A stretch of 64,000 nt of DNA from Coffea arabica (lineage: Eukaryota > Streptophyta > Magnoliopsida > Gentianales > Rubiaceae). The notes beneath the pieces are model-generated. The model searched no databases and was not told the DNA's origin. It saw only the letters and a list, made by a program, of their open reading frames with translations. This document shows positions 18,638 to 64,000 of this stretch, in pieces; position 1 is the first letter of the stretch, and every line of letters starts with the position of its first letter. Position numbers and translations under genes: made by a program. The stretch is from contig NC_092312.1 of NCBI RefSeq assembly GCF_036785885.1, positions 12,604,001-12,668,000 of the forward strand. Direction: 5' to 3'.

Positions 18638-18712
18638 TTCTATGTCCTTGTGCTTCGTCTTGTGGAAAGAGCAGAAGAGAGTTGGGAAGGACACTTGATG
18701 GATGGAATTCAA

Positions 18713-24664: not shown

Positions 24665-24725
24665 TTTTTAATTTGTGTTTTGGGTTGGGAGAGGGGAATA
24701 ACTGGGGCAGATAACATCAGCTGAT

Positions 24726-27879: not shown

Positions 27880-29150
27880 AGGAAGAAATGAGTGCTTCTC
27901 TGACTGGGAGAGCACCATTAATACATTTCCAGATGAATACCTTGATTTTGTGTTTGATGTTGAGCTTCCGCAGGGTGCTTCAGATTTGCTTGCTTTGTTG
28001 ACTGCCTTCTTCAAAATTTGTTCTAGCAGCCTCCCTGTTTTCCTTTCTTGTTGAGCTTTCTCCCATTGGCCACTTGTACCCAAAGCTTACAGTGTAATTC
28101 CCTCCTGCACTGAGCTGCCAATAGTTGAAGTCTTCTCTGTCTGACAGATTAATAGGAATGTTTAGGATCCTCTCTGCATCAGTCTGATTGAAAAGTCTGA
28201 AAATGGTATTTCTGTTCCATCTTCTGTGGTTGATGAGCTGCTGCACTGTTTCAAAATCACAATTATTAGGTCTGGGAGTAGTTGGTTTGCCAGAAGGTGA
28301 TTCTGGTATCCACCTGTGCTCCCAAATGTTAGTGCTTCTTCCATTATATCCCTTTTTCAATTTGACCCCTGGCTTTCAGTAGTCCTTTCCAGATCCAGGA
28401 TGCATTGCTTTGTGCTTTAAATGAGAGAATTGACTCCTTGGGGAAGTACTTAGCTTTCAACACTTCGCTGACCAAAAGATTTGGTTTGGTAAGTAGTCTC
28501 CAGATCTGTTTCCCTAGCAGAGCTTTATTAAAGGCACCTTTCATACTTGAAGGCAACCCATTTCATCGTGCCTGCCATTTTCACAATGGTTCCTCTAAGT
28601 AAAGGCTTTGGCAGGTCTGCTAGAAATAGCATCTTCAAGTGTCTTCCTTCCTTTCCTCCCATCTGTGGGATTATAACATCTTTACCCTTTTTAAATACTG
28701 CTCCTATCTTCCTCCCCACTTCTTTTGTTACCCAATGTATAGGTAGATTCCATGCCTGCACCCACAAGGGGGCTATCTCAAAGGCTTCTGTTGTTTCTTC
28801 TATCCCCTCTGTTCATCTATTCAGAACCAGGATTTGGTTGTCTATCATTCACGGTCCTCCTTCCACTATTCTTTCCTTGTCCTCTTTGTTAGAGATGTTG
28901 AATTGGAACAGGTCAGGTCCTAGTTGCACCACTGTCAGATTTTTTGGATATCCCCAGGCAGCTGTACAAAATTTTTAACACCTGTCAAGTTTGCATTTTT
29001 CTCTCCTACTACTCTTCCAATGTGACTGTCCTTGCACTCTCTTACTCCACCTTCCAGATCTCTCAGGTCCAAAGTAGCTCTAGAGAGTTTGTTCCCAGCT
29101 AGGGAGAATTTTTGCAAGATTTCTTCTAATTCCGACTCCATTGATATTAT
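27880..29150 (-). pseudogene. LINE (non-LTR retrotransposon), internally deleted
   Basis: On the minus strand, ORF1 begins near 29141 (MESELEEILQKFSLAGNKLS) with the DUF4283-type plan: an ECKDSHIGRVVGEKNAN segment, then WVQAWNLPIHWVTKEVGRKI and GGKEGRH..LKMLFLADLPKPL. Just after KWVAFKYERCL the sequence jumps to the end of ORF2: ALLGKQIWRLLTKPNLLVSE, KAKYFPKESIL, SNASWIWKGLL, NIWEHRWIPE. So the gag zinc knuckle, endonuclease and most of the reverse transcriptase are missing. Stops and frameshifts interrupt what is left. The 3' part fades at the edge of block B and no poly(A) is visible. Confidence 0.75.
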
Positions 29151-38700: not shown

Positions 38701-39734
38701 TAAAGAAGGACAGAAATTATAAACATAAAAATAGTGTCAAAATTATAATTATTTCACATAAATAACACTTATTATATGTTAATACAAAGTAGTATTATTA
38801 ATTTATATATATTAGATGCATGCTAAACATATATGATTTTCATTGATCTGCATTAATACAAAACACCATAATCGATTTATATATATTGATTAGATACATA
38901 TAGAATTTTTATTCATTTGTATGTATTAGATGTATATAGGATTTTTAGCGACTTGCATATTTTTTTTGATATTTAATATGTTTGTGTATATAGCAACCTG
39001 CATATTTTGTTTATATTTAATATGTTTGTTGATATACACATTTTAGAGAAAGTTAATAAGTAAGCGAATAAATATAAAAAAGTGATAAAATTGTAAACAT
39101 AAAAATACGTTGGTCAATATACACGGCTTGAAAATTAAGATAATATTTTTTATTTTATAAATATTAAATTACTATAATACATTTTTCCAAAAGAATTTTA
39201 AAAAATAGCAGTATATCTAGTTTAGTAAACGATTTGAACACTTCCGCATATAGCATTTTTATTGATTTGCATAATTTTTTGAAAATCAATATCTTTGTTA
39301 ATATATAAAAAAGCAGAGGAAATTATATTTTGAAGAAGGAAACGTTTACAAAGTTAAAGAAGGAAGTTATACGTTGAAGGAAGTTAATTAATAAAATTGA
39401 TAAATTAATATATCTAATTTTTGTCAATAGAGTCCGATAACAATTGCAACAGCGAAAGATGGACAGGAAACAAAAGGGTCCGATAACATATTGCAGCAGC
39501 GAAGGATGGACAGCAAACAAAAGGACAAAACTGAGCATAAAATTACAAAGAAACCAGGACAAGGGCACAATTGGAAGAAGGGAACAAAAGCAGAAATGAG
39601 CAAAAAGGCACCAGCAGCCAAAGGGGCTGCACGGAAGCTGGAAAGGATCAAAAAGGACGAAATCAGCTGCGAAACCACAGCGAAACCGGCACAATCAACT
39701 GTAGATTTGGCTTCGCGGCTTTTTGTAGTTTAGA
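35788..39734 (-). mobile_element. Non-autonomous Helitron, about 3.9 kb
   Basis: On the minus strand it starts TCTAAACTACAAAAAGCCGC after a host A. It ends with a hairpin (CCCCACAAAAATCGCGGGG) followed by CACAATGCCTAG and a host T, matching the Helitron 3' signature of hairpin plus CTAG. There is no target duplication. The 5' 300 bp are GC-richer with a 46-bp double repeat at 39432-39523; the rest is AT-rich tandem repeats. No Rep/helicase is encoded. Termini were found by eye, so the pairing of the two ends is probable, not proven. Confidence 0.6.
36780..39060. repeat. AT-rich tandem duplication, 1074-bp offset, with inner sub-repeats
   Basis: AGGATATTTAGCGATTTGCA at 36847 recurs at 37921, and about 1 kb on each side aligns with small indels. 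Within each copy, shorter modules recur (TTTTCATTGATCTGCATTAAT, GATTTATATATATTGAT, AATAAGTGAGTTAATAAATAAG), so the structure is hierarchical. It fills the middle of the Helitron at 35788-39734. Confidence 0.8.
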
Positions 39735-39743
39735 TAGCTTCCG

Positions 39744-42700
39744 GTTCCTATTTTTCGGTTTGTTATTAATGGTTATTTATGGTGGAACTTGGAAGACCTT
39801 CTTGCTTGTGTTTCCATTTCGGTCTTTTCTTGGTATTTTGCAGTGAAACGTTTTGACTGCTTTGCCCTCTCCCCTCTCCTGTATATGTCAAGAATAGTTG
39901 GATAGAAAAGTCAAACAGGGTAACTTTTTAAGTACACATCTTGGGCGAGGAGATTGGCAAACAACCGCAGAGGATTGAATTAGGATTTTTAATTTGTGTT
40001 TTGGGTAGGGCGAGGGGAATAACTGGGGCAGATAACATCAGCTGACATGAGTATTTCATTTGAAAATCCCATTGTTGGTGATATAGGTGGAGATCAGGAA
40101 GATTCTTTAGGGGCTTCACCACCCCAAAAGAAGCACAAGCTTGATGATAAAGAATGCCATGGTGCCAAGGAGAAGGAAAAGGAGATGCCAACATCAGAAA
40201 AGGATTCCTGTTGTTCAAATGAAATTTTTACCATTTCTGATGAGCAATTTGAGAAATTGAAGTTGGACTATTGCCCCGAAGGGGTCGAAGAGATTGATCA
40301 AGATGTATGGACCAAGTATTTTAAAGAGATCGAGGAGAGTGAGGTATTTATGTGTGGTATTTGTGATGTTCTGCATTGTTTTTTCTTTTGCCCCCCCCCC
40401 CCCCCCCCCCCCTTTGTCTCTCTTAATCTAGATTGATCTTATTTGGGGCATCATTCCTTTGTGTTAGGGTTTTGACATTTATCATTATCCTGGTCTATGT
40501 TTGATGGCTCGATTTACTCCCCTGGATGTTGACAATTTCTCGAGCGACTTGGCTGAACCGTCAAAAGCTGCAATTGTGCATTTCAACAAAGAAAAAGTAA
40601 ATGTTCCAAAAATTAATTTTTCTTTTACTCTTTTCCTCTGTTAATATTTATCACTTTTTACAGCTGCATTAGTCTGTTACCTATTTCAAGTGAATTAAAC
40701 AGTAAAATCTTTCAGATTAAGAATTACAAATTGGAAAAGGTTGAGAAGGCAAATGCACAACTTGGCGGTGCTGGTGTCAATTACTACATAACCTTTCAAG
40801 CCAAGGATTTTGTTACTAATGCTTTTGATACCTTCCAAGCCTTAGTCTGGAACGGGTGGAATCCAGAATCTATTGATGTGCAATTCTGCCGGCTCAAATC
40901 AGTTCCTGCAACTTGACCTATGCTGTTCCAGGTAATTCAATCTAATTGGGTTTCTGATATTGGTTTTGAACTTTTATGAGTTATCAGTTTATAGGTGGAA
41001 ATTAGGAATTCGCTAGAATAGCAGCATGATCTCCACACTGTGTTTTCCTGTGTTTTTCTTCCATATACTGGGTAAGTATAATGAGCCCATGTCTCATGAT
41101 TTTAGAAAGATACCAAAAGTCAGCAGTGGAGGTCCTTCTGGAACAATTTATTCAGGAACTTTCTCCATGGTTTATATCGTACTTCCTCTGCTATGTCCAC
41201 ACAAATAACTTTACAGAAATCTACTAAGTTGATGATATAGTCGGCTTCTTCCTCCTCAGGGTTGTCATATAGTGAAATCTGGTCTTGACATGAAAACTAC
41301 GGTTGGCAGTTGACTAATATGCTGGTTCTACAATCATCAGAGTTCTAGTCTATGAGTCTGTTAAGTTGACATATGGTTTTTGCTGGGTGTAATCATGGGC
41401 ATGCTACATGCATGTTTTGAGGCTTGATGTGGGTTTGATTTTGTTGTTGTTGCAATCTTTATGCAAAGCAACAATTATTGTCTTGGCTGCTGCTATACAT
41501 TGACTTGTTATGGATGTGGGATATTCAGCTCTGTCTTTCAAAAACTTCAAATTTGTTGCCTAGTCCGAACCCTTTGTTGCTATTGAATATGCTATTCTTG
41601 GATGCAAAGGTAATTTAGGTGTGGTGGGGAGGCTATTTTGTCACTTTGTTGCAGATAATCTGTACTTCATTTTTTCTGGTGATTTTAGTTTGCGAGGGAC
41701 TCGAATAGGCATAACATGTTGTGTAATGTCTTGTTTTTCTGGTGTGGCATAATATATATGTTCTGATTACAAGTCAACTTTGTTGCATAACTACACATGC
41801 TATTGGAATTAAAGATTGCTACTTTTCACAATCATCAAGGTTAACTGGAAATGTTGCTTGGCATTTTAGTATGTGTTTCATATCTCACATGTTGCTTGAT
41901 TTTAGCATTTCGTTCCCATATAATCTGGTAGTAATGCTGCTCATGCAATGTACATATTCTAATTAAGGCGCAATTTTAAGTTTTTGAGTTTATTGTTTGT
42001 GATGTTTCCAAGTTTGTAAAGTGCATTATATATATATATTTTTTGTTTGTGGACCTTTTTGTGTTTCAGTTTGTTCTTTTAGCTTATGAATTCTTGTTCA
42101 GTTGCTGCGTTCATTTTGGTGGCTGTAATATCACAAATCTACAGGTGCCCTTTTTGCTTTTAGAAGAAATGTATCCTCGCAAACTTTCTGAAACTAAAAT
42201 TTCTCATCTGCAATCAACTTTAAGGTTATTAAAGGAGTTTAAAGACTTAAAAGAAAATTTATGTGAATTGATAGGCCAATTATGTTCTGCAAGTATAAAT
42301 GAAGTTTGATGAGCTTCAAAGATCCATGTTTACTAACTTGGTATTCAACTTTAGAATCTTTGAGTCCACTGCCAACAACATTGAACCAAAAGATAAGTGA
42401 ATTTGACAAGCCTGTGAATGTGATTTTGGATCCCTGCAGACTGTAGAATATGCCTCTCTGCTAGAATTTATTAGCAAAACCAAGTATGGGAGAGGTTTAT
42501 CGCATGTAGCTAAACATTTATGCAGAATTTGTTTGTTTCAATCCTGTGTTGATATGCTCCTCTAAGAAGGGTAGTGTGTTGTATATATTGTCTTGGCAAA
42601 AACTCACTGGATAAGATAATTAGGGCAGAGGCTTATGATCTATAGCTAAAGTTTTAAGAACTGGGCATATTTGATCCTATGAGGAGGACGGTTGGATTTA

Positions 42701-43417
42701 TTAGTTACTTTATTCAACTTGACAAAATGCTTTAGCTGCAATCTTGTGGCTGCCTTGATTGTCAAGTAAGGCCTTGCCCGTACTAGTTCTATGGTAATTC
42801 TTGGCACCTGGCCAGTTCTCTTTCCGAGTCGATGATAAACAAGTTGAAATTGTTGTTGTTTAATAAATGTCATTCACAGGTTTTCTGTTAAACGTGCAGG
42901 TTATGGAGATTGTTCCATATCGCACTATTAGTTTGCTTCTTTTTAGCTGATATAGATGACTAATGTATGTAAGAAATAGAACTTTGTTTGATGAAGTTAG
43001 ATGGCTGCTGGCTGAAGCAGATTGCTGCTAAGGTTCTTGAACTTAGTAACAGGAGACTTGATTCGTGACAAATTTGGCTGTCATGTAAGTTCTGTATGTG
43101 GCACCAAATCTCACCTTGGATGCTGGATGACACACTTTGTGCTGTTGAAGTTCTTGAACTTCGATTATGACTTGATTTTGCTGATAACTGGTTATTTTAC
43201 TTAAAGTGTGTGGGATTACATTCAACGGGCTGTGTTAGTCTGTCAACGTTGCTACACATTTTGCTATTGGGCATTCTAGATCGTATTACATGTGATTTTG
43301 CTTTTACTTGGCTATCTTGAGAAGTGGATGATGTTTTAATTGTTTTTAGGAGATTAGGAAAATTTGTTGGATTGGGAAACATGTGAGAGCACAAATCTTC
43401 CAAGGAAGAAATGAGTG
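39744..43417. repeat. Duplicated block B' (mate of 23298-27897)
   Basis: This is the same content and orientation as block B but without the MULE-like insertion, and with about 190 bp at 42545-42735 that B lacks. It begins ten bases after the Helitron end and stops at GAAATGAGTGC before unrelated sequence. Confidence 0.9.
40047..40916 (+). CDS. Cystatin-like domain protein, copy 2, three exons
   Basis: Exons 40047-40343, 40468-40596 and 40716-40916 encode 208 residues, with the same splice phases as the copy at 24726. The open frame is intact. Changes from copy 1 include SISFENPIVGD near the start, QLGGAG in place of QLCGAG in the first binding loop, and loss of three residues in the second hairpin (VWNGWNPESIDV). 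The QxVxG inhibitor motif is again imperfect. Intron 1 contains a run of 22 C at 40391-40412 where copy 1 has a short T/C stretch. Both copies keep open frames with only modest change, so they may be expressed, but nothing here shows expression. Confidence 0.8.
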
Positions 43418-43878
43418 CCCTGCAGTTCTCAATTCAGATTTAGCCAATGAAGTCTCTTTCGAGCTCAGCCCCATGTGTTAGCTTACAATGTCCGAGTAAT
43501 GCAACAATCGACTATAAACTCGTCTTTATTAATGACAGTGCAACTGTTCTAAACAATAAAAAGAAAAATTAGAGAAAAGTAAAGGATATCAAGTTCCTTA
43601 AAAATTTTGGTTGTCTTCGTTTGACTCTAATTCCTTCCTAAACGAGGAACAAATTATTAGAAGAAAATTACCCAAGAATACGCTCCAAGCCTTCCAACGG
43701 CTGTTATTTTATAGTTTTGAGTTTATGTGTGTTGGTATTAACTATTCAAAATTTATTACGAATTATAACCTACCCAGATTTCTGATGACGAGCTCATATT
43801 TTGTCTACTGATGACATTTTGTGTCAGCAAGGTAGTCGTTATATTCTATCACAGTATTGCCCCTTCAAAGCTTCCACC
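43418..43878. other. Unique stretch between block B' and the membrane-protein gene
   Basis: No recognisable coding content. The last 100 bp may be 5' UTR or promoter of the following gene. Confidence 0.35.
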
Positions 43879-48480: not shown

Positions 48481-48539
48481 GAGTGTTGAAAAACACTTCT
48501 TCTTCACAGTCTGCCTATCCATTAATGGTTTTTTTATCA

Positions 48540-49200
48540 TCCATTTTTACCTTCTTCTTAACAGGCTATCACTTCATGGTTAAAGGTTCCATGAGTTGTA
48601 CTACCTATAGTGATTGGGTAATATTCATGATTATGTTATTTATTATTATTATTATTTTATATTTGGACAGGATATTATTGTGCATTTTTCTGTTTTACAT
48701 TGTGCCAAGACATATGCTGGGCATATGTAGCTCCAGAGGCAATATCATCACAAATGAAGAATATTTACCACCATCCATCCAACAAGTTGTTAACTGTGCA
48801 AAAAGTTGGTAGTAGAAGATAATGAAAAAGATACTAAATATACTATCAATTGAGTATTTCTATATGAGGGAGATCTAGGAATTTGTTTGGATCAGGATTA
48901 CTAGTTCAATAGTCAAGATAAGAGATCTAACCCATCTCGTGGTGAAAGCATAGGTTGCCACTAAAAACTTGTTTTGAATAACTTTTTATATTGTTTAGGA
49001 GTCTATTGACTGATCATAATACATTATTAATTCATTATAAATGTACAGACTCAGCTGTTTTGTGGTCCAAGATTATGTTGTTCCAAAGATTGATGAAGAA
49101 ATCAGGGAAGCAATCTCAAAGTTTCCTATTGATGGAGTAATGCACATATAGAATGTTTAATAGATTGGAAGAAGGTTCAAATCTAGTGTATTAAATACCT
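48540..49200 (+). pseudogene. Decayed papain-like protease copy, cut by the retrotransposon array
   Basis: It aligns with the gene at 33769 in order. CTTCTTAACAGGC and the TCATGG.T.AAGGT.CCA exon start are at about 48550-48580. CAAGACATATGCTGGGC.TATGTAGCTCCAGAG gives the active-site ICWAYVAPE at about 48705-48735. The exon-4 part (GATGAAGAAATC.GGGAAGCAATCTCAAAGTTTCC) is at about 49090. Frameshifts and stops are present and the catalytic His/Asn exon is missing. The match ends at the LTR edge, so the element landed at the place corresponding to the intron after exon 4. Confidence 0.75.
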
Positions 49201-49345
49201 ATACTGTTGAGTTTGATCCCTATCTTTTGATGTTTACAAAACAAATGGATGATACTAATATTTCTTCAAGATATATTTTCAATTATGAAATTATTTGATT
49301 CCATGAACAAGTGCAATTGGAAGAAGACAAAGTATGCTGAAGCTG

Positions 49346-49573
49346 TCGGACGCTCAAAAAGACTGCATCGGACGTCCGACAACCATTGAGTATCTTCGGA
49401 CGCAGAAAACCAGCCTATCGGACGTCCTAAGGAATTGAAGAAAAATTCTCAGTTTTACATCATACATTCGGACGCAGAAAACCAGCCTATCGGACGTCCG
49501 AAAGAATTGAAGAAAATTTCTCAAACTCACTGACTGCTGTCGGACGCATAAAACAGTGCTATCGGACGTCCGA
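49346..49573 (+). promoter_or_regulatory. Palindrome cluster in the LTR U3 (repeated in all LTRs)
   Basis: There are four modules, each a half-site TCGGACGC followed about 14-17 bases later by TCGGACGTCC(GA). Three are perfect TCGGACGTCCGA palindromes and the second is altered to TCGGACGTCCTAA. It lies about 75-300 bp upstream of the TATA box. Clustered CG-rich palindromes are a reported feature of Sirevirus LTRs and are thought regulatory; a factor binding these has not been inferred here. Confidence 0.8.
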
Positions 49574-49647
49574 CACTACCAACGGCTAGTTGACTGTTCA
49601 GCTACTTTCTATCCGTTGGAAGCTTTAATGAGGCTCTTTCTTGGTCC

Positions 49648-49658
49648 TATATAAATAG
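49648..49658 (+). promoter_or_regulatory. LTR TATA box
   Basis: TATATAAATAG sits in the middle of the LTR, downstream of the palindromes, placing the RNA start (U3/R border) at about 49680. The same site recurs every 3055 bp, so each LTR could drive its own unit. Confidence 0.75.
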
Positions 49659-50066
49659 TGGTTGGTCAGATACTTCAAACAACTTTGGCACACTGAAGAT
49701 ACAAAAGATCTAGAGAGATTTTAGTGAGAAAATACTCCAAAAAGAATATTTGTAGTCTTAGTGGTGTGAGGTTCATTGTAAGCTTTTCATTTGTGAGTGA
49801 ATCTTTCATGAGTGTAGCTCTGTGAGGGTTGTCCTGAGGGATAGTAAAACGTCCTGGCTTGACCGAGTGCTGCTTGGGGCAAGGAGGAGGTGAACCTTCC
49901 TTTGTACACAAGAGTGATTGTAATTCATCAACTTGAAGTAGCTTGTTTCAATTAATCTACAAGCTCAAGAGGAGTTGGGTAGTTAATTGGTTTGCAATCC
50001 TTTCCTTTTTATTTACTTATTGTTTCGTTTATGATCTTTGCATTGGTTGTTTTTGGGCCTTACAAT

Positions 50067-50078
50067 TGGTATCAGAGC
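50067..50078 (+). other. Primer-binding site (initiator-Met tRNA)
   Basis: TGGTATCAGAGC, two bases after the LTR end, is the standard plant Copia PBS complementary to the 3' end of initiator-Met tRNA. It recurs at 53122, 56177, 59232 and 62287. Confidence 0.92.
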
Positions 50079-50120
50079 TTGGTCTCCTTGAGATTAAGCT
50101 CAATCGGCTTTGGAGTAAAG

Positions 50121-50840
50121 ATGACAACCAATAATGCTATGTTTTTTGAAGGACATTCTGTTATTAGACCACCTGTGTTTAATGGGTCAAATTATATGAG
50201 TTGGAAAGAAAGAATGATTATCTTTTTGCAATCTATTGATATCGAATTGTGGTTTATTATTAGTGAAGGTCCATATGATGCCTCTCTTATAGATGAAAAT
50301 ACTCATGCATCTAGACCGAAAACAAGAAGTGAACTGACTGCTGTGGATAGAGCTCATCTCACCTTAAATGCAAAAGCCATGAATGTGTTATATTGTGCAT
50401 TAGACTCAAATGAATCTATTAGAGTCAAGGGTTGCAAGTCAGCTAAAGAAATTTGGGACAAACTGAAAGAAATTCATGAAGGTAGTGAGAATGTTAGAGA
50501 ACAAAAGAAGTCCATTCTAGTTACAAAGTATGAATCTTTCAAGATGGAACCTCATGAAAATGTTGATCAAATGTATTGTAGATTCAATGATCTCATTAAA
50601 GATTTAGAGGTGCTGGAAAAAGAATATTCTCTTGGTGAGAAAAATAGAAAAATCCTGAATGCCTTGTCCAATGATTGGGAAAATAAAGTGACTGCTATTG
50701 AGGAGGCTAGAGATTTGAATACTATGCCTATTGAATCTCTTATTAACTCTCTTACCGCTTATGAGCTGAAACTTAAGACTAAGGTGCAAGAGGAAGAGGA
50801 TGCAAAAGTGCGAAAGAATATTGCTCTAAAAGCCTCATAA
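50121..50840 (+). CDS. Gag N-terminal half (UBN2/DUF4219-type), unit 1
   Basis: The ATG at 50121 starts the gag frame soon after the PBS; an upstream in-frame ATG at 49992 lies in the LTR and is unlikely to be used. The 239-residue product has the N-terminal FNGSNYMSWKERM module and a UBN2-type capsid domain (WDKLKEIHEGSENVREQKK, then YCRFNDLIKDLEVL and LNALSNDWENK). It forms the structural shell of Copia particles. A TAA at 50838 ends it; the same frame resumes immediately with an acidic stretch, so the full gag is split by one stop. G at 50757 gives Ala in TAYELKL. Confidence 0.85.
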   Translation: MTTNNAMFFEGHSVIRPPVFNGSNYMSWKERMIIFLQSIDIELWFIISEGPYDASLIDENTHASRPKTRSELTAVDRAHLTLNAKAMNVLYCALDSNESIRVKGCKSAKEIWDKLKEIHEGSENVREQKKSILVTKYESFKMEPHENVDQMYCRFNDLIKDLEVLEKEYSLGEKNRKILNALSNDWENKVTAIEEARDLNTMPIESLINSLTAYELKLKTKVQEEEDAKVRKNIALKAS

Positions 50841-51803
50841 GATGAAGATGATTCTGCCTCCCTAGATGAAGAAGATGTGGAAGGTGATGACAATGATATC
50901 GCTCTCATCACAAAAAGTTTCAAACGAATACTCAACAAGAGTAGATTCAGAAATGGTGGATCTAGCAATTCATTCCCAAATCAGTTCAACAACTCGAGAA
51001 ACAAAGGGAAGCTAGAGTTCAACAAAAAGCAAACTGATCAGTGCGTTGAATGCGGCCAACCTGGACACTATGCAAGTGACTGTCCAATGATGAAGAAAAA
51101 AGAAGGAAGAAAACCAAGAATAAACAAATTTCAATTCACATGGAATGAATGCAATTCCGATGGTGAAATTGAAGAGGAAGATCAATCTGCTCAATTGGCT
51201 TTCATGGCCATTGGAGATGATGAGGTAACATCTTCTAACTCTCAATTTGAAAGTGATGATGAAGATGATGATGATCTTGAATATTTCATTATAAAATTGC
51301 ATGATAGTTTGAAAGAATCTTATGTTAGAAACAAGGAGTTAAAACAGAAAATTAGTTTTTTGCTTCGAGATAATGCAAATCTTTTTCAACAAAATAAAAA
51401 GTTGAAAGCTGAAAATGATTACTTCAAAAAAAGTGAGACTGCTTTACACTTGGATCTTGATAGAAAAACAGGTTTTTGTGAAATGTTCAAAAGGGAACAA
51501 GATGATTTGAAAAGAAGAATGGATGATTTAAATGAGTTGCTTCAACATAAAAAACAGGACTGTTTTCAAAGTAATAAATCAAAAACTCATTTTAAGATAA
51601 ATTCTGCTGCAAATGAGTTTGCTATCCATAGGAGAAGACAAGTAAGATTTATTAAACTTGTTCATATAAATAATTCCCTGATTATGTGTAATTTCTGTTG
51701 TCAAAAAGGTCATATGAAAAGTGATTGCTATGTGAGAAAGAATATAAAAAAAGGCATGAAATACATGTGGATAGTTAGGCATGATGCTAACTTTAACAAG
51801 TAG
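50841..51803 (+). CDS. Gag C-terminal half (two zinc knuckles, coiled coil), unit 1
   Basis: This is in the same frame as the N-terminal half, directly after the TAA. The first ATG-like start is weak, so translation would need readthrough or internal initiation. It has an acidic start, a basic region, a first CCHC knuckle CVECGQPGHYASDC (51042-51083), an acidic stretch, a long coiled-coil region (KELKQKISFLLRDNANLFQQ onward) and a second CCHC knuckle CNFCCQKGHMKSDC (51687-51728). It stops at WIVRHDANFNK, where full Copia elements continue into the aspartic protease, so pol has been lost just before its first domain. The knuckles bind RNA for packaging. Confidence 0.8.
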   Translation, partial: DEDDSASLDEEDVEGDDNDIALITKSFKRILNKSRFRNGGSSNSFPNQFNNSRNKGKLEFNKKQTDQCVECGQPGHYASDCPMMKKKEGRKPRINKFQFTWNECNSDGEIEEEDQSAQLAFMAIGDDEVTSSNSQFESDDEDDDDLEYFIIKLHDSLKESYVRNKELKQKISFLLRDNANLFQQNKKLKAENDYFKKSETALHLDLDRKTGFCEMFKREQDDLKRRMDDLNELLQHKKQDCFQSNKSKTHFKINSAANEFAIHRRRQVRFIKLVHINNSLIMCNFCCQKGHMKSDCYVRKNIKKGMKYMWIVRHDANFNK

Positions 51804-52245
51804 GAGATTTTGTTAATCATTGCAGTGATTCTTGTTCACAATATTCTTCTTTTGATATTTCTGATATTTTGATTTGAGTTTTCGCTGATATTTTTGAATA
51901 CTACTGAATCTATATGATGTCAAAAAGGGAGAGAAAAGAACTATTCTGATCTAACGATGATTTGCTAATTTCTCAGTAATAAGTTGGTATGTTGGTATTG
52001 CTGAATTCTGCTATCATTTCTCTGTTTTTGTTTGAAATATTGGATTTTCTGTTATTGTTGTTGGATTATGGTTGCTGGTTATTACTCTCATCTTATGATG
52101 ACAAAAAGGGGGAGAGATGGATGCAATGTGTAAGGGGGAGTTATTATGAGATTATGAGTTTGGCTCTTAAAAGTTTTGATTGCAATGATTGAGGGGGAGC
52201 TTATACTTATTTTTGTTTCTTTCCATCCATTGTTTTGTCATCATC
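51804..52245 (+). other. Post-gag untranslated region with repeated PPT-like motifs, unit 1
   Basis: Purine-rich motifs occur at about 51922 (CAAAAAGGGAGAGAAAAG), 52102 (CAAAAAGGGGGAGAGATGG), 52132 (AAGGGGGAG) and 52191 (GAGGGGGAGC), ahead of the main PPT. Multiple PPT-like motifs before the 3' LTR are a described Sirevirus trait. No coding function is seen. The equivalent regions in units 2-4 look the same. Confidence 0.75.
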
Positions 52246-52259
52246 AAAAAGGGGGAGAT
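52246..52259 (+). other. Polypurine tract (plus-strand primer), unit 1
   Basis: AAAAAGGGGGAGAT directly abuts the next LTR start TGTTGAG. It recurs before LTRs 3, 4 and 5. Confidence 0.88.
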
Positions 52260-53119
52260 TGTTGAGTTTGATCCCTATCTTTTGATGTTTACAAAACAAA
52301 TGGATGATACTAATATTTCTTCAAGATATATTTTCAGTTATGAAATTATTTGATTCCATGAACAAGTGCAATTGGAAGAAGACAAAGTATGCTGAAGCTG
52401 TCGGACGCTCAAAAAGACTGCATCGGACGTCCGACAACCATTGAGTATCTTCGGACGCAGAAAACCAGCCTATCGGACGTCCTAAGGAATTGAAGAAAAA
52501 TTCTCAGTTTTACATCATACCTTCGGACGCAGAAAACCAGCCTATCGGACGTCCGAAAGAATTGAAGAAAATTTCTCAAACTCACTGACTGCTGTCGGAC
52601 GCATAAAACAGTGCTATCGGACGTCCGACACTACCAACGGCTAGTTGACTGTTCAGCTACTTTCTATCCGTTGGAAGCTTTAATGAGGCTCTTTCTTGGT
52701 CCTATATAAATAGTGGTTGGTCAGATACTTCAAACAACTTTGGCACACTGAAGATACAAAAGATCTAGAGAGATTTTAGTGAGAAAATACTCCAAAAAGA
52801 ATATTTGTAGTCTTAGTGGTGTGAGGTTCATTGTAAGCTTTTCATTTGTGAGTGAATCTTTCATGAGTGTAGCTCTGTGAGGGTTGTCCTGAGGGATAGT
52901 AAAACGTCCTGGCTTGACCGAGTGCTGCTTGGGGCAAGGAGGAGGTGAACATTCCTTTGTACACAAGAGTGATTGTAATTCATCAACTTGAAGTAGCTTG
53001 TTTCAATTAATCTACAAGCTCAAGAGGAGTTGGGTAGTTAATTGGTTTGCAATCCTTTCCTTTTTATTTACTTATTGTTTCGTTTATGATCTTTGCATTG
53101 GTTGTTTTTGGGCCTTACA
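52260..53119 (+). repeat. LTR 2
   Basis: 860 bp, same ends as LTR 1. It has A at 52951 where LTRs 1, 3 and 4 have C. By reading it differs from LTR 1 at three positions. Confidence 0.92.
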
Positions 53120-53175
53120 ATTGGTATCAGAGCTTGGTCTCCTTGAGATTAAGCTCAATCGGCTTTGGAGTAAAG

Positions 53176-54858
53176 ATGACAACCAATAATGCTATGTTTT
53201 TTGAAGGACATTCTGTTATTAGACCACCTGTGTTTAATGGGTCAAATTATATGAGTTGGAAAGAAAGAATGATTATCTTTTTGCAATCTATTGATATCGA
53301 ATTGTGGTTTATTATTAGTGAAGGTCCATATGATGCCTCTCTTATAGATGAAAATACTCATGCATCTAGACCGAAAACAAGAAGTGAACTGACTGCTGTG
53401 GATAGAGCTCATCTCACCTTAAATGCAAAAGCCATGAATGTGTTATATTGTGCATTAGACTCAAATGAATCTATTAGAGTCAAGGGTTGCAAGTCAGCTA
53501 AAGAAATTTGGGACAAACTGAAAGAAATTCATGAAGGTAGTGAGAATGTTAGAGAACAAAAGAAGTCCATTCTAGTTACAAAGTATGAATCTTTCAAGAT
53601 GGAACCTCATGAAAATGTTGATCAAATGTATTGTAGATTCAATGATCTCATTAAAGATTTAGAGGTGCTGGAAAAAGAATATTCTCTTGGTGAGAAAAAT
53701 AGAAAAATCCTGAATGCCTTGTCCAATGATTGGGAAAATAAAGTGACTGCTATTGAGGAGGCTAGAGATTTGAATACTATGCCTATTGAATCTCTTATTA
53801 ACTCTCTTACCTCTTATGAGCTGAAACTTAAGACTAAGGTGCAAGAGGAAGAGGATGCAAAAGTGCGAAAGAATATTGCTCTAAAAGCCTCATAAGATGA
53901 AGATGATTCTGCCTCCCTAGATGAAGAAGATGTGGAAGGTGATGACAATGATATCGCTCTCATCACAAAAAGTTTCAAACGAATACTCAACAAGAGTAGA
54001 TTCAGAAATGGTGGATCTAGCAATTCATTCCCAAATCAGTTCAACAACTCGAGAAACAAAGGGAAGCTAGAGTTCAACAAAAAGCAAACTGATCAGTGCG
54101 TTGAATGCGGCCAACCTGGACACTATGCAAGTGACTGTCCAATGATGAAGAAAAAAGAAGGAAGAAAACCAAGAATAAACAAATTTCAATTCACATGGAA
54201 TGAATGCAATTCCGATGGTGAAATTGAAGAGGAAGATCAATCTGCTCAATTGGCTTTCATGGCCATTGGAGATGATGAGGTAACATCTTCTAACTCTCAA
54301 TTTGAAAGTGATGATGAAGATGATGATGATCTTGAATATTTCATTATAAAATTGCATGATAGTTTGAAAGAATCTTATGTTAGAAACAAGGAGTTAAAAC
54401 AGAAAATTAGTTTTTTGCTTCGAGATAATGCAAATCTTTTTCAACAAAATAAAAAGTTGAAAGCTGAAAATGATTACTTCAAAAAAAGTGAGACTGCTTT
54501 ACACTTGGATCTTGATAGAAAAACAGGTTTTTGTGAAATGTTCAAAAGGGAACAAGATGATTTGAAAAGAAGAATGGATGATTTAAATGAGTTGCTTCAA
54601 CATAAAAAACAGGACTGTTTTCAAAGTAATAAATCAAAAACTCATTTTAAGATAAATTCTGCTGCAAATGAGTTTGCTATCCATAGGAGAAGACAAGTAA
54701 GATTTATTAAACTTGTTCATATAAATAATTCCCTGATTATGTGTAATTTCTGTTGTCAAAAAGGTCATATGAAAAGTGATTGCTATGTGAGAAAGAATAT
54801 AAAAAAAGGCATGAAATACATGTGGATAGTTAGGCATGATGCTAACTTTAACAAGTAG
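53176..54858 (+). CDS. Gag, unit 2, split by the shared in-frame TAA
   Basis: Same layout as unit 1, with the stop at 53893-53895 and the second half to 54858. T at 53812 gives Ser (TSYELKL) instead of Ala. No other protein change was noticed. Confidence 0.82.
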
Positions 54859-55314
54859 GAGATTTTGTTAATCATTGCAGTGATTCTTGTTCACAATATT
54901 CTTCTTTTGATATTTCTGATATTTTGATTTGAGTTTTCGCTGATATTTTTGAATACTACTGAATCTATATGATGTCAAAAAGGGAGAGAAAAGAACTATT
55001 CTGATCTAACGATGATTTGCTAATTTCTCAGTAATAAGTTGGTATGTTGGTATTGCTGAATTCTGCTATCATTTCTCTGTTTTTGTTTGAAATATTGGAT
55101 TTTCTGTTATTGTTGTTGGATTATGGTTGCTGGTTATTACTCTCATCTTATGATGACAAAAAGGGGGAGAGATGGATGCAATGTGTAAGGGGGAGTTATT
55201 ATGAGATTATGAGTTTGGCTCTTAAAAGTTTTGATTGCAATGATTGAGGGGGAGCTTATACTTATTTTTGTTTCTTTCCATCCATTGTTTTGTCATCATC
55301 AAAAAGGGGGAGAT

Positions 55315-56174
55315 TGTTGAGTTTGATCCCTATCTTTTGATGTTTACAAAACAAATGGATGATACTAATATTTCTTCAAGATATATTTTCAGTTATGAAA
55401 TTATTTGATTCCATGAACAAGTGCAATTGGAAGAAGACAAAGTATGCTGAAGCTGTCGGACGCTCAAAAAGACTGCATCGGACGTCCGACAACCATTGAG
55501 TATCTTCGGACGCAGAAAACCAGCCTATCGGACGTCCTAAGGAATTGAAGAAAAATTCTCAGTTTTACATCATACCTTCGGACGCAGAAAACCAGCCTAT
55601 CGGACGTCCGAAAGAATTGAAGAAAATTTCTCAAACTCACTGACTGCTGTCGGACGCATAAAACAGTGCTATCGGACGTCCGACACTACCAACGGCTAGT
55701 TGACTGTTCAGCTACTTTCTATCCGTTGGAAGCTTTAATGAGGCTCTTTCTTGGTCCTATATAAATAGTGGTTGGTCAGATACTTCAAACAACTTTGGCA
55801 CACTGAAGATACAAAAGATCTAGAGAGATTTTAGTGAGAAAATACTCCAAAAAGAATATTTGTAGTCTTAGTGGTGTGAGGTTCATTGTAAGCTTTTCAT
55901 TTGTGAGTGAATCTTTCATGAGTGTAGCTCTGTGAGGGTTGTCCTGAGGGATAGTAAAACGTCCTGGCTTGACCGAGTGCTGCTTGGGGCAAGGAGGAGG
56001 TGAACCTTCCTTTGTACACAAGAGTGATTGTAATTCATCAACTTGAAGTAGCTTGTTTCAATTAATCTACAAGCTCAAGAGGAGTTGGGTAGTTAATTGG
56101 TTTGCAATCCTTTCCTTTTTATTTACTTATTGTTTCGTTTATGATCTTTGCATTGGTTGTTTTTGGGCCTTACA
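55315..56174 (+). repeat. LTR 3
   Basis: 860 bp. It has C at 56006, like LTRs 1 and 4. Confidence 0.92.
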
Positions 56175-56230
56175 ATTGGTATCAGAGCTTGGTCTCCTTG
56201 AGATTAAGCTCAATCGGCTTTGGAGTAAAG

Positions 56231-57913
56231 ATGACAACCAATAATGCTATGTTTTTTGAAGGACATTCTGTTATTAGACCACCTGTGTTTAATGGGTCAA
56301 ATTATATGAGTTGGAAAGAAAGAATGATTATCTTTTTGCAATCTATTGATATCGAATTGTGGTTTATTATTAGTGAAGGTCCATATGATGCCTCTCTTAT
56401 AGATGAAAATACTCATGCATCTAGACCGAAAACAAGAAGTGAACTGACTGCTGTGGATAGAGCTCATCTCACCTTAAATGCAAAAGCCATGAATGTGTTA
56501 TATTGTGCATTAGACTCAAATGAATCTATTAGAGTCAAGGGTTGCAAGTCAGCTAAAGAAATTTGGGACAAACTGAAAGAAATTCATGAAGGTAGTGAGA
56601 ATGTTAGAGAACAAAAGAAGTCCATTCTAGTTACAAAGTATGAATCTTTCAAGATGGAACCTCATGAAAATGTTGATCAAATGTATTGTAGATTCAATGA
56701 TCTCATTAAAGATTTAGAGGTGCTGGAAAAAGAATATTCTCTTGGTGAGAAAAATAGAAAAATCCTGAATGCCTTGTCCAATGATTGGGAAAATAAAGTG
56801 ACTGCTATTGAGGAGGCTAGAGATTTGAATACTATGCCTATTGAATCTCTTATTAACTCTCTTACCTCTTATGAGCTGAAACTTAAGACTAAGGTGCAAG
56901 AGGAAGAGGATGCAAAAGTGCGAAAGAATATTGCTCTAAAAGCCTCATAAGATGAAGATGATTCTGCCTCCCTAGATGAAGAAGATGTGGAAGGTGATGA
57001 CAATGATATCGCTCTCATCACAAAAAGTTTCAAACGAATACTCAACAAGAGTAGATTCAGAAATGGTGGATCTAGCAATTCATTCCCAAATCAGTTCAAC
57101 AACTCGAGAAACAAAGGGAAGCTAGAGTTCAACAAAAAGCAAACTGATCAGTGCGTTGAATGCGGCCAACCTGGACACTATGCAAGTGACTGTCCAATGA
57201 TGAAGAAAAAAGAAGGAAGAAAACCAAGAATAAACAAATTTCAATTCACATGGAATGAATGCAATTCCGATGGTGAAATTGAAGAGGAAGATCAATCTGC
57301 TCAATTGGCTTTCATGGCCATTGGAGATGATGAGGTAACATCTTCTAACTCTCAATTTGAAAGTGATGATGAAGATGATGATGATCTTGAATATTTCATT
57401 ATAAAATTGCATGATAGTTTGAAAGAATCTTATGTTAGAAACAAGGAGTTAAAACAGAAAATTAGTTTTTTGCTTCGAGATAATGCAAATCTTTTTCAAC
57501 AAAATAAAAAGTTGAAAGCTGAAAATGATTACTTCAAAAAAAGTGAGACTGCTTTACACTTGGATCTTGATAGAAAAACAGGTTTTTGTGAAATGTTCAA
57601 AAGGGAACAAGATGATTTGAAAAGAAGAATGGATGATTTAAATGAGTTGCTTCAACATAAAAAACAGGACTGTTTTCAAAGTAATAAATCAAAAACTCAT
57701 TTTAAGATAAATTCTGCTGCAAATGAGTTTGCTATCCATAGGAGAAGACAAGTAAGATTTATTAAACTTGTTCATATAAATAATTCCCTGATTATGTGTA
57801 ATTTCTGTTGTCAAAAAGGTCATATGAAAAGTGATTGCTATGTGAGAAAGAATATAAAAAAAGGCATGAAATACATGTGGATAGTTAGGCATGATGCTAA
57901 CTTTAACAAGTAG
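56231..57913 (+). CDS. Gag, unit 3, split by the shared in-frame TAA
   Basis: Stop at 56948-56950. It has Ser at the variable site (T at 56867). The combination of LTR C and gag T is unique to this unit. Confidence 0.82.
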
Positions 57914-58369
57914 GAGATTTTGTTAATCATTGCAGTGATTCTTGTTCACAATATTCTTCTTTTGATATTTCTGATATTTTGATTTGAGTTTTCGCTGATA
58001 TTTTTGAATACTACTGAATCTATATGATGTCAAAAAGGGAGAGAAAAGAACTATTCTGATCTAACGATGATTTGCTAATTTCTCAGTAATAAGTTGGTAT
58101 GTTGGTATTGCTGAATTCTGCTATCATTTCTCTGTTTTTGTTTGAAATATTGGATTTTCTGTTATTGTTGTTGGATTATGGTTGCTGGTTATTACTCTCA
58201 TCTTATGATGACAAAAAGGGGGAGAGATGGATGCAATGTGTAAGGGGGAGTTATTATGAGATTATGAGTTTGGCTCTTAAAAGTTTTGATTGCAATGATT
58301 GAGGGGGAGCTTATACTTATTTTTGTTTCTTTCCATCCATTGTTTTGTCATCATCAAAAAGGGGGAGAT

Positions 58370-59229
58370 TGTTGAGTTTGATCCCTATCTTTTGATGTTT
58401 ACAAAACAAATGGATGATACTAATATTTCTTCAAGATATATTTTCAGTTATGAAATTATTTGATTCCATGAACAAGTGCAATTGGAAGAAGACAAAGTAT
58501 GCTGAAGCTGTCGGACGCTCAAAAAGACTGCATCGGACGTCCGACAACCATTGAGTATCTTCGGACGCAGAAAACCAGCCTATCGGACGTCCTAAGGAAT
58601 TGAAGAAAAATTCTCAGTTTTACATCATACCTTCGGACGCAGAAAACCAGCCTATCGGACGTCCGAAAGAATTGAAGAAAATTTCTCAAACTCACTGACT
58701 GCTGTCGGACGCATAAAACAGTGCTATCGGACGTCCGACACTACCAACGGCTAGTTGACTGTTCAGCTACTTTCTATCCGTTGGAAGCTTTAATGAGGCT
58801 CTTTCTTGGTCCTATATAAATAGTGGTTGGTCAGATACTTCAAACAACTTTGGCACACTGAAGATACAAAAGATCTAGAGAGATTTTAGTGAGAAAATAC
58901 TCCAAAAAGAATATTTGTAGTCTTAGTGGTGTGAGGTTCATTGTAAGCTTTTCATTTGTGAGTGAATCTTTCATGAGTGTAGCTCTGTGAGGGTTGTCCT
59001 GAGGGATAGTAAAACGTCCTGGCTTGACCGAGTGCTGCTTGGGGCAAGGAGGAGGTGAACCTTCCTTTGTACACAAGAGTGATTGTAATTCATCAACTTG
59101 AAGTAGCTTGTTTCAATTAATCTACAAGCTCAAGAGGAGTTGGGTAGTTAATTGGTTTGCAATCCTTTCCTTTTTATTTACTTATTGTTTCGTTTATGAT
59201 CTTTGCATTGGTTGTTTTTGGGCCTTACA
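58370..59229 (+). repeat. LTR 4
   Basis: 860 bp. C at 59061, as in LTR 1, but without LTR 1's two private bases. Confidence 0.92.
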
Positions 59230-59285
59230 ATTGGTATCAGAGCTTGGTCTCCTTGAGATTAAGCTCAATCGGCTTTGGAGTAAAG

Positions 59286-60968
59286 ATGACAACCAATAAT
59301 GCTATGTTTTTTGAAGGACATTCTGTTATTAGACCACCTGTGTTTAATGGGTCAAATTATATGAGTTGGAAAGAAAGAATGATTATCTTTTTGCAATCTA
59401 TTGATATCGAATTGTGGTTTATTATTAGTGAAGGTCCATATGATGCCTCTCTTATAGATGAAAATACTCATGCATCTAGACCGAAAACAAGAAGTGAACT
59501 GACTGCTGTGGATAGAGCTCATCTCACCTTAAATGCAAAAGCCATGAATGTGTTATATTGTGCATTAGACTCAAATGAATCTATTAGAGTCAAGGGTTGC
59601 AAGTCAGCTAAAGAAATTTGGGACAAACTGAAAGAAATTCATGAAGGTAGTGAGAATGTTAGAGAACAAAAGAAGTCCATTCTAGTTACAAAGTATGAAT
59701 CTTTCAAGATGGAACCTCATGAAAATGTTGATCAAATGTATTGTAGATTCAATGATCTCATTAAAGATTTAGAGGTGCTGGAAAAAGAATATTCTCTTGG
59801 TGAGAAAAATAGAAAAATCCTGAATGCCTTGTCCAATGATTGGGAAAATAAAGTGACTGCTATTGAGGAGGCTAGAGATTTGAATACTATGCCTATTGAA
59901 TCTCTTATTAACTCTCTTACCGCTTATGAGCTGAAACTTAAGACTAAGGTGCAAGAGGAAGAGGATGCAAAAGTGCGAAAGAATATTGCTCTAAAAGCCT
60001 CATAAGATGAAGATGATTCTGCCTCCCTAGATGAAGAAGATGTGGAAGGTGATGACAATGATATCGCTCTCATCACAAAAAGTTTCAAACGAATACTCAA
60101 CAAGAGTAGATTCAGAAATGGTGGATCTAGCAATTCATTCCCAAATCAGTTCAACAACTCGAGAAACAAAGGGAAGCTAGAGTTCAACAAAAAGCAAACT
60201 GATCAGTGCGTTGAATGCGGCCAACCTGGACACTATGCAAGTGACTGTCCAATGATGAAGAAAAAAGAAGGAAGAAAACCAAGAATAAACAAATTTCAAT
60301 TCACATGGAATGAATGCAATTCCGATGGTGAAATTGAAGAGGAAGATCAATCTGCTCAATTGGCTTTCATGGCCATTGGAGATGATGAGGTAACATCTTC
60401 TAACTCTCAATTTGAAAGTGATGATGAAGATGATGATGATCTTGAATATTTCATTATAAAATTGCATGATAGTTTGAAAGAATCTTATGTTAGAAACAAG
60501 GAGTTAAAACAGAAAATTAGTTTTTTGCTTCGAGATAATGCAAATCTTTTTCAACAAAATAAAAAGTTGAAAGCTGAAAATGATTACTTCAAAAAAAGTG
60601 AGACTGCTTTACACTTGGATCTTGATAGAAAAACAGGTTTTTGTGAAATGTTCAAAAGGGAACAAGATGATTTGAAAAGAAGAATGGATGATTTAAATGA
60701 GTTGCTTCAACATAAAAAACAGGACTGTTTTCAAAGTAATAAATCAAAAACTCATTTTAAGATAAATTCTGCTGCAAATGAGTTTGCTATCCATAGGAGA
60801 AGACAAGTAAGATTTATTAAACTTGTTCATATAAATAATTCCCTGATTATGTGTAATTTCTGTTGTCAAAAAGGTCATATGAAAAGTGATTGCTATGTGA
60901 GAAAGAATATAAAAAAAGGCATGAAATACATGTGGATAGTTAGGCATGATGCTAACTTTAACAAGTAG
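59286..60968 (+). CDS. Gag, unit 4, split by the shared in-frame TAA
   Basis: Stop at 60003-60005. It has Ala at the variable site (G at 59922), as in unit 1. Confidence 0.82.
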
Positions 60969-61424
60969 GAGATTTTGTTAATCATTGCAGTGATTCTTGT
61001 TCACAATATTCTTCTTTTGATATTTCTGATATTTTGATTTGAGTTTTCGCTGATATTTTTGAATACTACTGAATCTATATGATGTCAAAAAGGGAGAGAA
61101 AAGAACTATTCTGATCTAACGATGATTTGCTAATTTCTCAGTAATAAGTTGGTATGTTGGTATTGCTGAATTCTGCTATCATTTCTCTGTTTTTGTTTGA
61201 AATATTGGATTTTCTGTTATTGTTGTTGGATTATGGTTGCTGGTTATTACTCTCATCTTATGATGACAAAAAGGGGGAGAGATGGATGCAATGTGTAAGG
61301 GGGAGTTATTATGAGATTATGAGTTTGGCTCTTAAAAGTTTTGATTGCAATGATTGAGGGGGAGCTTATACTTATTTTTGTTTCTTTCCATCCATTGTTT
61401 TGTCATCATCAAAAAGGGGGAGAT

Positions 61425-62284
61425 TGTTGAGTTTGATCCCTATCTTTTGATGTTTACAAAACAAATGGATGATACTAATATTTCTTCAAGATATATTTTC
61501 AGTTATGAAATTATTTGATTCCATGAACAAGTGCAATTGGAAGAAGACAAAGTATGCTGAAGCTGTCGGACGCTCAAAAAGACTGCATCGGACGTCCGAC
61601 AACCATTGAGTATCTTCGGACGCAGAAAACCAGCCTATCGGACGTCCTAAGGAATTGAAGAAAAATTCTCAGTTTTACATCATACCTTCGGACGCAGAAA
61701 ACCAGCCTATCGGACGTCCGAAAGAATTGAAGAAAATTTCTCAAACTCACTGACTGCTGTCGGACGCATAAAACAGTGCTATCGGACGTCCGACACTACC
61801 AACGGCTAGTTGACTGTTCAGCTACTTTCTATCCGTTGGAAGCTTTAATGAGGCTCTTTCTTGGTCCTATATAAATAGTGGTTGGTCAGATACTTCAAAC
61901 AACTTTGGCACACTGAAGATACAAAAGATCTAGAGAGATTTTAGTGAGAAAATACTCCAAAAAGAATATTTGTAGTCTTAGTGGTGTGAGGTTCATTGTA
62001 AGCTTTTCATTTGTGAGTGAATCTTTCATGAGTGTAGCTCTGTGAGGGTTGTCCTGAGGGATAGTAAAACGTCCTGGCTTGACCGAGTGCTGCTTGGGGC
62101 AAGGAGGAGGTGAACATTCCTTTGTACACAAGAGTGATTGTAATTCATCAACTTGAAGTAGCTTGTTTCAATTAATCTACAAGCTCAAGAGGAGTTGGGT
62201 AGTTAATTGGTTTGCAATCCTTTCCTTTTTATTTACTTATTGTTTCGTTTATGATCTTTGCATTGGTTGTTTTTGGGCCTTACA
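61425..62284 (+). repeat. LTR 5
   Basis: 860 bp. A at 62116, as in LTR 2. Confidence 0.92.
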
Positions 62285-62340
62285 ATTGGTATCAGAGCTT
62301 GGTCTCCTTGAGATTAAGCTCAATCGGCTTTGGAGTAAAG

Positions 62341-64000
62341 ATGACAACCAATAATGCTATGTTTTTTGAAGGACATTCTGTTATTAGACCACCTGTGTTT
62401 AATGGGTCAAATTATATGAGTTGGAAAGAAAGAATGATTATCTTTTTGCAATCTATTGATATCGAATTGTGGTTTATTATTAGTGAAGGTCCATATGATG
62501 CCTCTCTTATAGATGAAAATACTCATGCATCTAGACCGAAAACAAGAAGTGAACTGACTGCTGTGGATAGAGCTCATCTCACCTTAAATGCAAAAGCCAT
62601 GAATGTGTTATATTGTGCATTAGACTCAAATGAATCTATTAGAGTCAAGGGTTGCAAGTCAGCTAAAGAAATTTGGGACAAACTGAAAGAAATTCATGAA
62701 GGTAGTGAGAATGTTAGAGAACAAAAGAAGTCCATTCTAGTTACAAAGTATGAATCTTTCAAGATGGAACCTCATGAAAATGTTGATCAAATGTATTGTA
62801 GATTCAATGATCTCATTAAAGATTTAGAGGTGCTGGAAAAAGAATATTCTCTTGGTGAGAAAAATAGAAAAATCCTGAATGCCTTGTCCAATGATTGGGA
62901 AAATAAAGTGACTGCTATTGAGGAGGCTAGAGATTTGAATACTATGCCTATTGAATCTCTTATTAACTCTCTTACCTCTTATGAGCTGAAACTTAAGACT
63001 AAGGTGCAAGAGGAAGAGGATGCAAAAGTGCGAAAGAATATTGCTCTAAAAGCCTCATAAGATGAAGATGATTCTGCCTCCCTAGATGAAGAAGATGTGG
63101 AAGGTGATGACAATGATATCGCTCTCATCACAAAAAGTTTCAAACGAATACTCAACAAGAGTAGATTCAGAAATGGTGGATCTAGCAATTCATTCCCAAA
63201 TCAGTTCAACAACTCGAGAAACAAAGGGAAGCTAGAGTTCAACAAAAAGCAAACTGATCAGTGCGTTGAATGCGGCCAACCTGGACACTATGCAAGTGAC
63301 TGTCCAATGATGAAGAAAAAAGAAGGAAGAAAACCAAGAATAAACAAATTTCAATTCACATGGAATGAATGCAATTCCGATGGTGAAATTGAAGAGGAAG
63401 ATCAATCTGCTCAATTGGCTTTCATGGCCATTGGAGATGATGAGGTAACATCTTCTAACTCTCAATTTGAAAGTGATGATGAAGATGATGATGATCTTGA
63501 ATATTTCATTATAAAATTGCATGATAGTTTGAAAGAATCTTATGTTAGAAACAAGGAGTTAAAACAGAAAATTAGTTTTTTGCTTCGAGATAATGCAAAT
63601 CTTTTTCAACAAAATAAAAAGTTGAAAGCTGAAAATGATTACTTCAAAAAAAGTGAGACTGCTTTACACTTGGATCTTGATAGAAAAACAGGTTTTTGTG
63701 AAATGTTCAAAAGGGAACAAGATGATTTGAAAAGAAGAATGGATGATTTAAATGAGTTGCTTCAACATAAAAAACAGGACTGTTTTCAAAGTAATAAATC
63801 AAAAACTCATTTTAAGATAAATTCTGCTGCAAATGAGTTTGCTATCCATAGGAGAAGACAAGTAAGATTTATTAAACTTGTTCATATAAATAATTCCCTG
63901 ATTATGTGTAATTTCTGTTGTCAAAAAGGTCATATGAAAAGTGATTGCTATGTGAGAAAGAATATAAAAAAAGGCATGAAATACATGTGGATAGTTAGGC
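62341..64000 (+). CDS. Gag, unit 5, split by TAA and cut by window end
   Basis: Stop at 63058-63060. It has Ser at the variable site (T at 62977), as in unit 2. The second zinc knuckle is present and the last 23 bases of the frame lie beyond the window. Confidence 0.8.

Follow-up and report, generated by a model that had tools for sequence, protein, structure and literature searches.

How does a row of complete retrotransposons come to stand head to tail at one place in a chromosome: does it grow there from a single insertion, or does it arrive as a ready-made multimer? The question is raised by a window of 64,000 nucleotides from Coffea arabica (contig NC_092312.1, here C3; C3:12604001-12668000), the last part of which is occupied by near-identical units of a long terminal repeat (LTR) retrotransposon that contains gag but no pol. 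Elements of this kind are called TR-GAG, which reportedly stands for terminal-repeat retrotransposon with GAG domain and is said to go back to Chaparro et al. in 2015. An initial annotation, made from the letters of the window, had described the array and left both origins side by side. The window, the following 200 kb and the genome (1.198 Gb in 131 contigs) were searched for the full extent of the array, its insertion site and its relatives. The pattern of variants among the units favors growth in place from a single integration, a reading to which we assign a probability of roughly 0.7.

The array, its unit and its target site

Within the window, units start at 49205, 52260, 55315, 58370 and 61425, that is, at a spacing of 3055 bp in 4/4 steps, and the self-match of the window is strongest at this same lag (3055). 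The units differ at four columns (unit positions 78, 262, 692 and 1553) and by no insertion or deletion. Each runs from an LTR of 860 bp (TGTTGAG...CTTACA, i.e., with TG...CA termini) via a primer binding site (PBS) and a Copia-type gag to a polypurine tract (PPT) and from there directly into the next LTR. The PBS (TGGTATCAGAGC) lies 2 bases downstream of the LTR in every unit (50067, 53122, 56177, 59232 and 62287) and was found nowhere else in the window when both strands were searched. The 72-bp repeats inside the LTR carry a 12-bp palindrome (TCGGACGTCCGA). Gag was recognized by its Pfam matches (PF14223, E 3.1e-27; zf-CCHC PF00098, E 4.3e-5), from which the Copia type of the element is predicted; its best named protein match is from Cinchona calisaya (Rubiaceae; 74%). 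A TAA codon at 50838-50840 interrupts gag, and the C-terminal part continues in the same frame. Because the units abut, there is no space for pol between gag and the next LTR, and a pol-bearing unit within the array is ruled out. Thus, the unit has the LTR pair with TG...CA ends, the PBS, the PPT and the gag domain without pol by which TR-GAG elements are defined, and dispersed single copies likewise have a 5′ and a 3′ LTR. The non-coding internal domain that characterizes Cassandra and other TRIM elements is not what was found, as the unit contains a gag domain.

The array extends beyond the window edge. Its main part, block 1 (C3:12653205-12722715; 69.5 kb; layout from matches of at least 150 bp), consists of 23 units, 20 full and three shortened, followed by a 932-bp terminal LTR containing one additional 72-bp repeat. 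Two of the shortened units were affected by a single 920-bp deletion spanning their border, the third by a 766-bp internal deletion; everywhere but at these two deletions, the unit junctions are exact PPT-LTR-PBS transitions. The initial annotation had claimed five LTRs at an exact 3055-bp period repeated four times, few point differences between units, a gag-only element with shared LTRs and no pol, and a young, satellite-like array, all of which held. It had put the array at five units or more, and the array is indeed real, but the count is 23 in block 1, not five. Intact pol in a downstream unit, named there as an observation that would overturn the description, was not present in block 1.

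A single pair of 5-bp target-site duplications (TSDs; TATAC) flanks the entire block 1, one copy before the first LTR and one after the last; the right-hand copy, which the initial annotation was still seeking, was located at C3:12722716-12722720. Internal regions alternating with shared LTRs, an LTR at both ends and one TSD pair around the whole are the features of a tandem LTR retrotransposon, and block 1 has all of them. The host sequence receiving the element is itself a tandem repeat of ~1.99 kb, further stretches of which are present at C3:12722716-12732348 and C3:12796661-12811538. One neighboring host repeat (C3:12730361) contains the unoccupied site, ACC-TATAC-CTTGTAAG, with one TATAC. 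One TATAC pair together with an empty site in a sister repeat indicates that a single integration founded the array.

Insertion hot spots are known for some LTR elements, which would count for separate elements having been inserted independently side by side. However, only one TSD pair is present, adjoining units have LTRs in common, and the gag stop is found in 27/27 full units of C3 (those of block 1 and of a second block described below) but not at that place in three dispersed copies. On account of the TSD, the shared stop and the variants among units, independent insertion was rejected as extremely improbable.

The first and last LTR of block 1 differ at 5/860 sites, in addition to the 72-bp repeat. 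At a rate of 1.3e-8 substitutions per site per year, as cited in PMC5818461, this corresponds to an array age of ~0.22 million years, a rough figure, the rate having been set in another plant and terminal LTRs being open to alteration by exchange.

Variant pattern and mode of growth

Across 31 units of blocks 1 and 2 (27 full, four partial), 24 columns are variable. If only the 20 full units of block 1 are counted, 20 columns are variable, and at eight of these, the minor state occurs in at least two units. Both single copies of the same subfamily (A type) on contig C21 (C21a and C21b; alignments under 400 bp skipped) hold the other, expected ancestral state at all eight shared columns, which means that the shared minor states arose within the array. 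Along block 1, these states switch only 21 times, compared with 46.2 ± 4.4 times after shuffling of the units, and none of 20,000 shuffles gave so low a number. Similarly, adjacent units differ at 2.21 sites on average and all pairs at 3.63 (0/20,000 shuffles as low). These tests, and the Mantel test considered below, were conducted with the full units of block 1, leaving aside the shortened units 13, 14 and 22/23 as well as block 2. One derived state is common to units 1 and 4 and another to units 2 and 5, which reads as the copy of a three-unit block. Six adjacent full units are identical. The first LTR (78A, 262A) and the last LTR, which shows two states absent from the penultimate LTR besides its additional 72-bp repeat, are distinct, as expected where exchange is rarest. 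Thus, the variant pattern favors unequal exchange in place, or similar repair, over a long multimer that merely aged, and the locus corresponds to a satellite in the sense of a long head-to-tail array of near-identical units homogenized by exchange.

The competing origin is the integration of a ready-made long multimer, either concatenated cDNA or the rolling-circle product of a one-LTR circle, with minor exchange afterward. The lone TSD pair around the array also fits this sequence of events, as do the exact PPT-LTR-PBS junctions outside the two deletions, and the routes via concatemers, template switching or circles are left open for tandem LTR elements and for Cassandra (PMC11899658 and PMC7215508). 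Mere ageing, however, predicts mostly private variants, whereas eight of 20 columns are shared, array-derived and clustered; furthermore, a three-unit block was repeated. A long ready-made multimer is, therefore, considered unlikely. Of the two origins that the initial annotation had proposed, unequal exchange is, thus, favored by the variants and the long multimer disfavored, while a short starting multimer may have been involved.

The preferred reading is the single integration of a gag-only element of the TR-GAG kind, followed by amplification in place through repeated unequal exchange or sister-chromatid repair. A non-autonomous, Copia-type element integrated once into one repeat of the host tandem locus (~2 kb per repeat), as the TATAC duplication left by this event shows. 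Exchange or sister-chromatid repair, as the variant pattern suggests, would have occurred first between LTRs and later between whole units; the outcome would be a row of LTR-internal-LTR-internal of 23 units, acting as a young satellite. Because every full unit has the same gag stop, this growth was apparently independent of intact Gag from the array. Several points weigh against amplification in place. The Mantel test of total unit distance versus position was not significant (r 0.13; 2407/20,000 shuffles as high), which is read as being due to changes private to units 11 and 12, and the switch and neighbor tests were chosen after this result. The variants do not distinguish exchange from gene conversion, an initial dimer or trimer may have been inserted as a multimer, and the unit number is taken from the assembly alone. 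Finally, expansion into arrays is not the rule: a probe placed one unit further downstream found a second unit at 0/10 dispersed loci.

The assembly itself must also be considered. In block 2 (C3:12771721-12796660), a truncated unit and seven full ones are followed by a terminal LTR identical to that of block 1. Over 15,001 bp (the array end and 9.6 kb of flank), the two blocks are 100% identical at a shift of 73,945 (pieces under 300 bp skipped), and the variant order in block 2 is that of the block 1 tail, apart from the 766-bp deletion in block 1 and a private change in block 2. The 39-kb spacer between the blocks (C3:12732349-12771720) matches neither flank except for the host repeat, and copies of a 1201-bp stretch of it, used as a probe, were located at C3:11472425 (100%; 1.28 Mb upstream) and on C4 (98%). 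Block 2 and the spacer are either a very recent segmental duplication or an assembly join error. If the assembler had expanded a short array or joined two haplotypes, the perfect identity of block 2 with the block 1 tail, the perfect spacer copy upstream and the six identical adjacent units would all be accounted for. Yet, the variant ladder of block 1, its two unlike deletions and its distinctive terminal LTR would not be invented by assembler copying, and another contig contains two more arrays of the family. An artifact of this kind is, therefore, very unlikely, and the doubt concerns less whether the array exists than exactly how many units it contains and whether block 2 is genuine.

Relatives elsewhere in the genome and features of the window

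The initial annotation had also called for a search for other arrays and solo copies; both exist, the former twice on contig C5 and the latter on C21, C17 and at further loci. A query with the gag of C21a returned at least 12 loci beyond the C3 array, its own included, among the best 40 of 4569 first-look candidates; as genome searches scored the best 40 matches, all copy and array numbers are lower bounds. In contrast to the frame broken in 27/27 full C3 units, gag is open in C21a (552 aa), C21b (535 aa) and the C17 copy (560 aa), and none of the three has a stop codon at the position of the array stop (the local alignment of C17 is gapped nearby). Each is flanked by its own TSD (ATTTC, GGGTG and ATTTT, respectively), C21a and C21b being of the A type and C17 of a sister type, B. 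Together with that of the C3 array, these 5-bp TSDs testify to mobilization by retrotransposition in the past. In two single copies, the 5′ and 3′ LTRs deviate from each other at 7/860 and 10/859 sites. In C21a and C21b, gag runs to the 3′ LTR without pol. The other 10 loci were examined with a 150-bp probe placed where the 3′ LTR was expected to start, or close to it; the probe matched LTR in 10/10, so no pol-sized insert is present between gag and the 3′ LTR there. Hence, 12/12 dispersed A-type loci are gag-only (two read, 10 probed on the downstream side), and no pol-bearing partner was found among them, sought only indirectly via the position of the 3′ LTR. The dispersed relatives moved by retrotransposition, as their TSDs show, presumably with Pol from a putative autonomous partner. 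Two dispersed copies, at C11:40044496 and C11:40056681, are 12,185 bp apart, a distance near that of four units (12,220), yet no additional unit follows either copy directly downstream.

Subfamily B, with a period of 3071 bp and about 89% identity to unit 2 of C3 over the compared stretch, forms both C5 arrays, which brings the family to at least three arrays. The larger one (C5:31500765-31737645; ~237 kb; ~77 units by length; matches of 120 bp or less excluded from the layout of the C5 arrays) opens with an intact 5′ LTR and breaks off within a unit at its 3′ end, so that no TSD can be read. Inside it, 32/32 short probes matched the element, compared with 0/14 past its end. Of 12 probes at exact multiples of 3071, 10 were identical over 300 bp (the reference included) and two differed at one and two sites; phase shifts among later probes indicate that the period is not kept perfectly along the whole array. 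Compared with the unit at the 3′ end, units near the 5′ end show 98.9-99.4% identity, and units are more divergent toward one end of the array, which was counted in favor of growth by exchange. The second array covers at least C5:44498561-44537200 with irregular units; it lies ~50 kb from the end of the contig (44,587,295 bp). Between the two arrays, sampled units share 99.6% identity, and their identity to the C17 copy is 98.3%. Gag is open in three of the B units sampled (560, 560 and 549 aa), but other gag frames in the same stretches are shorter (384, 310, 297 and 226 aa), and not all B units are, therefore, intact.

The family might have a built-in tendency, perhaps mediated by the 72-bp repeats and the palindrome of the LTR, to turn some insertions into satellites, i.e., be a mobile element that repeatedly seeds satellite loci, and the sister arrays, whose sampled units include ones with open gag (dozens of promoter-plus-gag units), might serve as a Gag-supply cluster for an autonomous partner. 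Both suggestions are tentative, and we consider them quite unlikely.

The features of the array within the window are collected in Table 1.

Table 1. Array features and left flank, in window coordinates.
Feature	Position	Strand	Basis or remark
Left host flank, piece of the ~1.99-kb host tandem repeat receiving the element	48541..49204	.	94-95% to repeats right of array
Left 5-bp TSD, TATAC	49200..49204	.	Right copy beyond window
Array portion in window (3055-bp units 1 to 4 in full, 2576 bp of unit 5)	49205..64000	+	Unit spacing, self-match, unit alignment
First (5′ terminal) LTR, 860 bp, TG...CA; 78A and 262A seen in no other full unit	49205..50064	+	
72-bp tandem repeat within LTR, 2.5 copies; one copy more in the terminal 3′ LTR of the array	49396..49573	+	
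PBS TGGTATCAGAGC	50067..50078	+	Two bases past LTR
Gag N-terminal part, 239 aa, ends at premature TAA	50121..50840	+	PF14223
Gag C-terminal part with zinc knuckle, same frame	50877..51803	+	PF00098
PPT AAAAAGGGGGAGAT, directly 5′ of next LTR; AGGGGGAG at 52250	52246..52259	+	
Second LTR, common to units 1 and 2	52260..53119	+	
Third LTR	55315..56174	+	
Fourth LTR	58370..59229	+	
Fifth LTR	61425..62284	+	

The host-repeat flank (window 48519-49177) has a 72% match at 34244-34932, and the open reading frame at 34963-35352 shows a weak papain-like match under the Pfam cut-off. Elsewhere in the window, a direct duplication (24665-27895 and 39986-43418; 97.2% over 2568 bp and 98.7% over 686 bp) and a region of complex tandem repeats (36645-39057; periods of ~105, 125, 214 and 345 bp) were observed. 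Host genes include one for a UDP-glycosyltransferase (17270-18718, minus strand; PF00201, E 2.6e-11; best named match C. calisaya, 82%) and a sulfotransferase frame (1053-1868, plus strand; PF00685, E 2.5e-57).

Known systems and meaning

The TR-GAG class comprises elements with gag alone or gag plus protease and no further pol, bounded by LTRs and equipped with a PBS and a PPT (PMC6022998). Such elements were described in Coffea (PMC5818461), and transposition of one TR-GAG was seen in Arabidopsis ddm1 (PMC8704663). The present element resembles them in LTRs, PBS, PPT and gag without pol but differs in its arrays of 23 and ~77 units, a form not described for TR-GAG in the available parts of these sources, and in the broken gag of C3. 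In rice, tandem LTR retrotransposons that share LTRs and have a single TSD pair are common; they are also present in other plants, with both routes of origin open (PMC11899658). Alternating LTRs and internal regions, shared LTRs, a single TSD pair and high identity are common to those tandems and the C3 array; however, each of the two loci detailed there is composed of three LTRs and two internal regions, the 28 tandems selected there code for conserved retrotransposon domains, and the part available contains no description of gag-only arrays tens of units long. Cassandra, a TRIM element, also forms long rows of near-identical LTR plus internal units and even has the same PBS string (TGGTATCAGAGC), but it is without gag, its LTRs bear 5S sequence, and its arrays contain up to 12 repeats (PMC7215508).

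Satellites derived from retrotransposons include CRM1TR and CRM4TR of maize, Sobo of potato and those of Lathyrus (PMC3648361, PMC9659126 and PMC7004042). They, too, are long arrays made from LTR-retrotransposon sequence, for which gene conversion, unequal exchange or rolling-circle amplification was proposed (PMC3648361 and PMC7004042). The CRM satellites consist of pieces of LTR and untranslated region, Sobo is LTR-related, and the Lathyrus satellites stem from short arrays within elements, whereas the unit here is a whole element; that satellites may form from a whole element has been stated (PMC9659126). Arrays of tens of complete gag-only elements were not found in the literature searched, most of it outside subscription journals. 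Thus, while TR-GAG elements and tandem LTR retrotransposons are already known, gag-only arrays of this length look new within that literature.

As read here, the locus captures the birth of a satellite from a complete, datable mobile element, i.e., a mobile element turning into satellite DNA. Its growth history can be read alongside the insertion site, the target duplication, the empty site and the single-copy relatives, and the wider family is represented in one genome by single copies as well as by arrays of 23 and ~77 units. The choice between exchange in place and multimer insertion as the origin of LTR-element tandems is, thereby, made directly testable.

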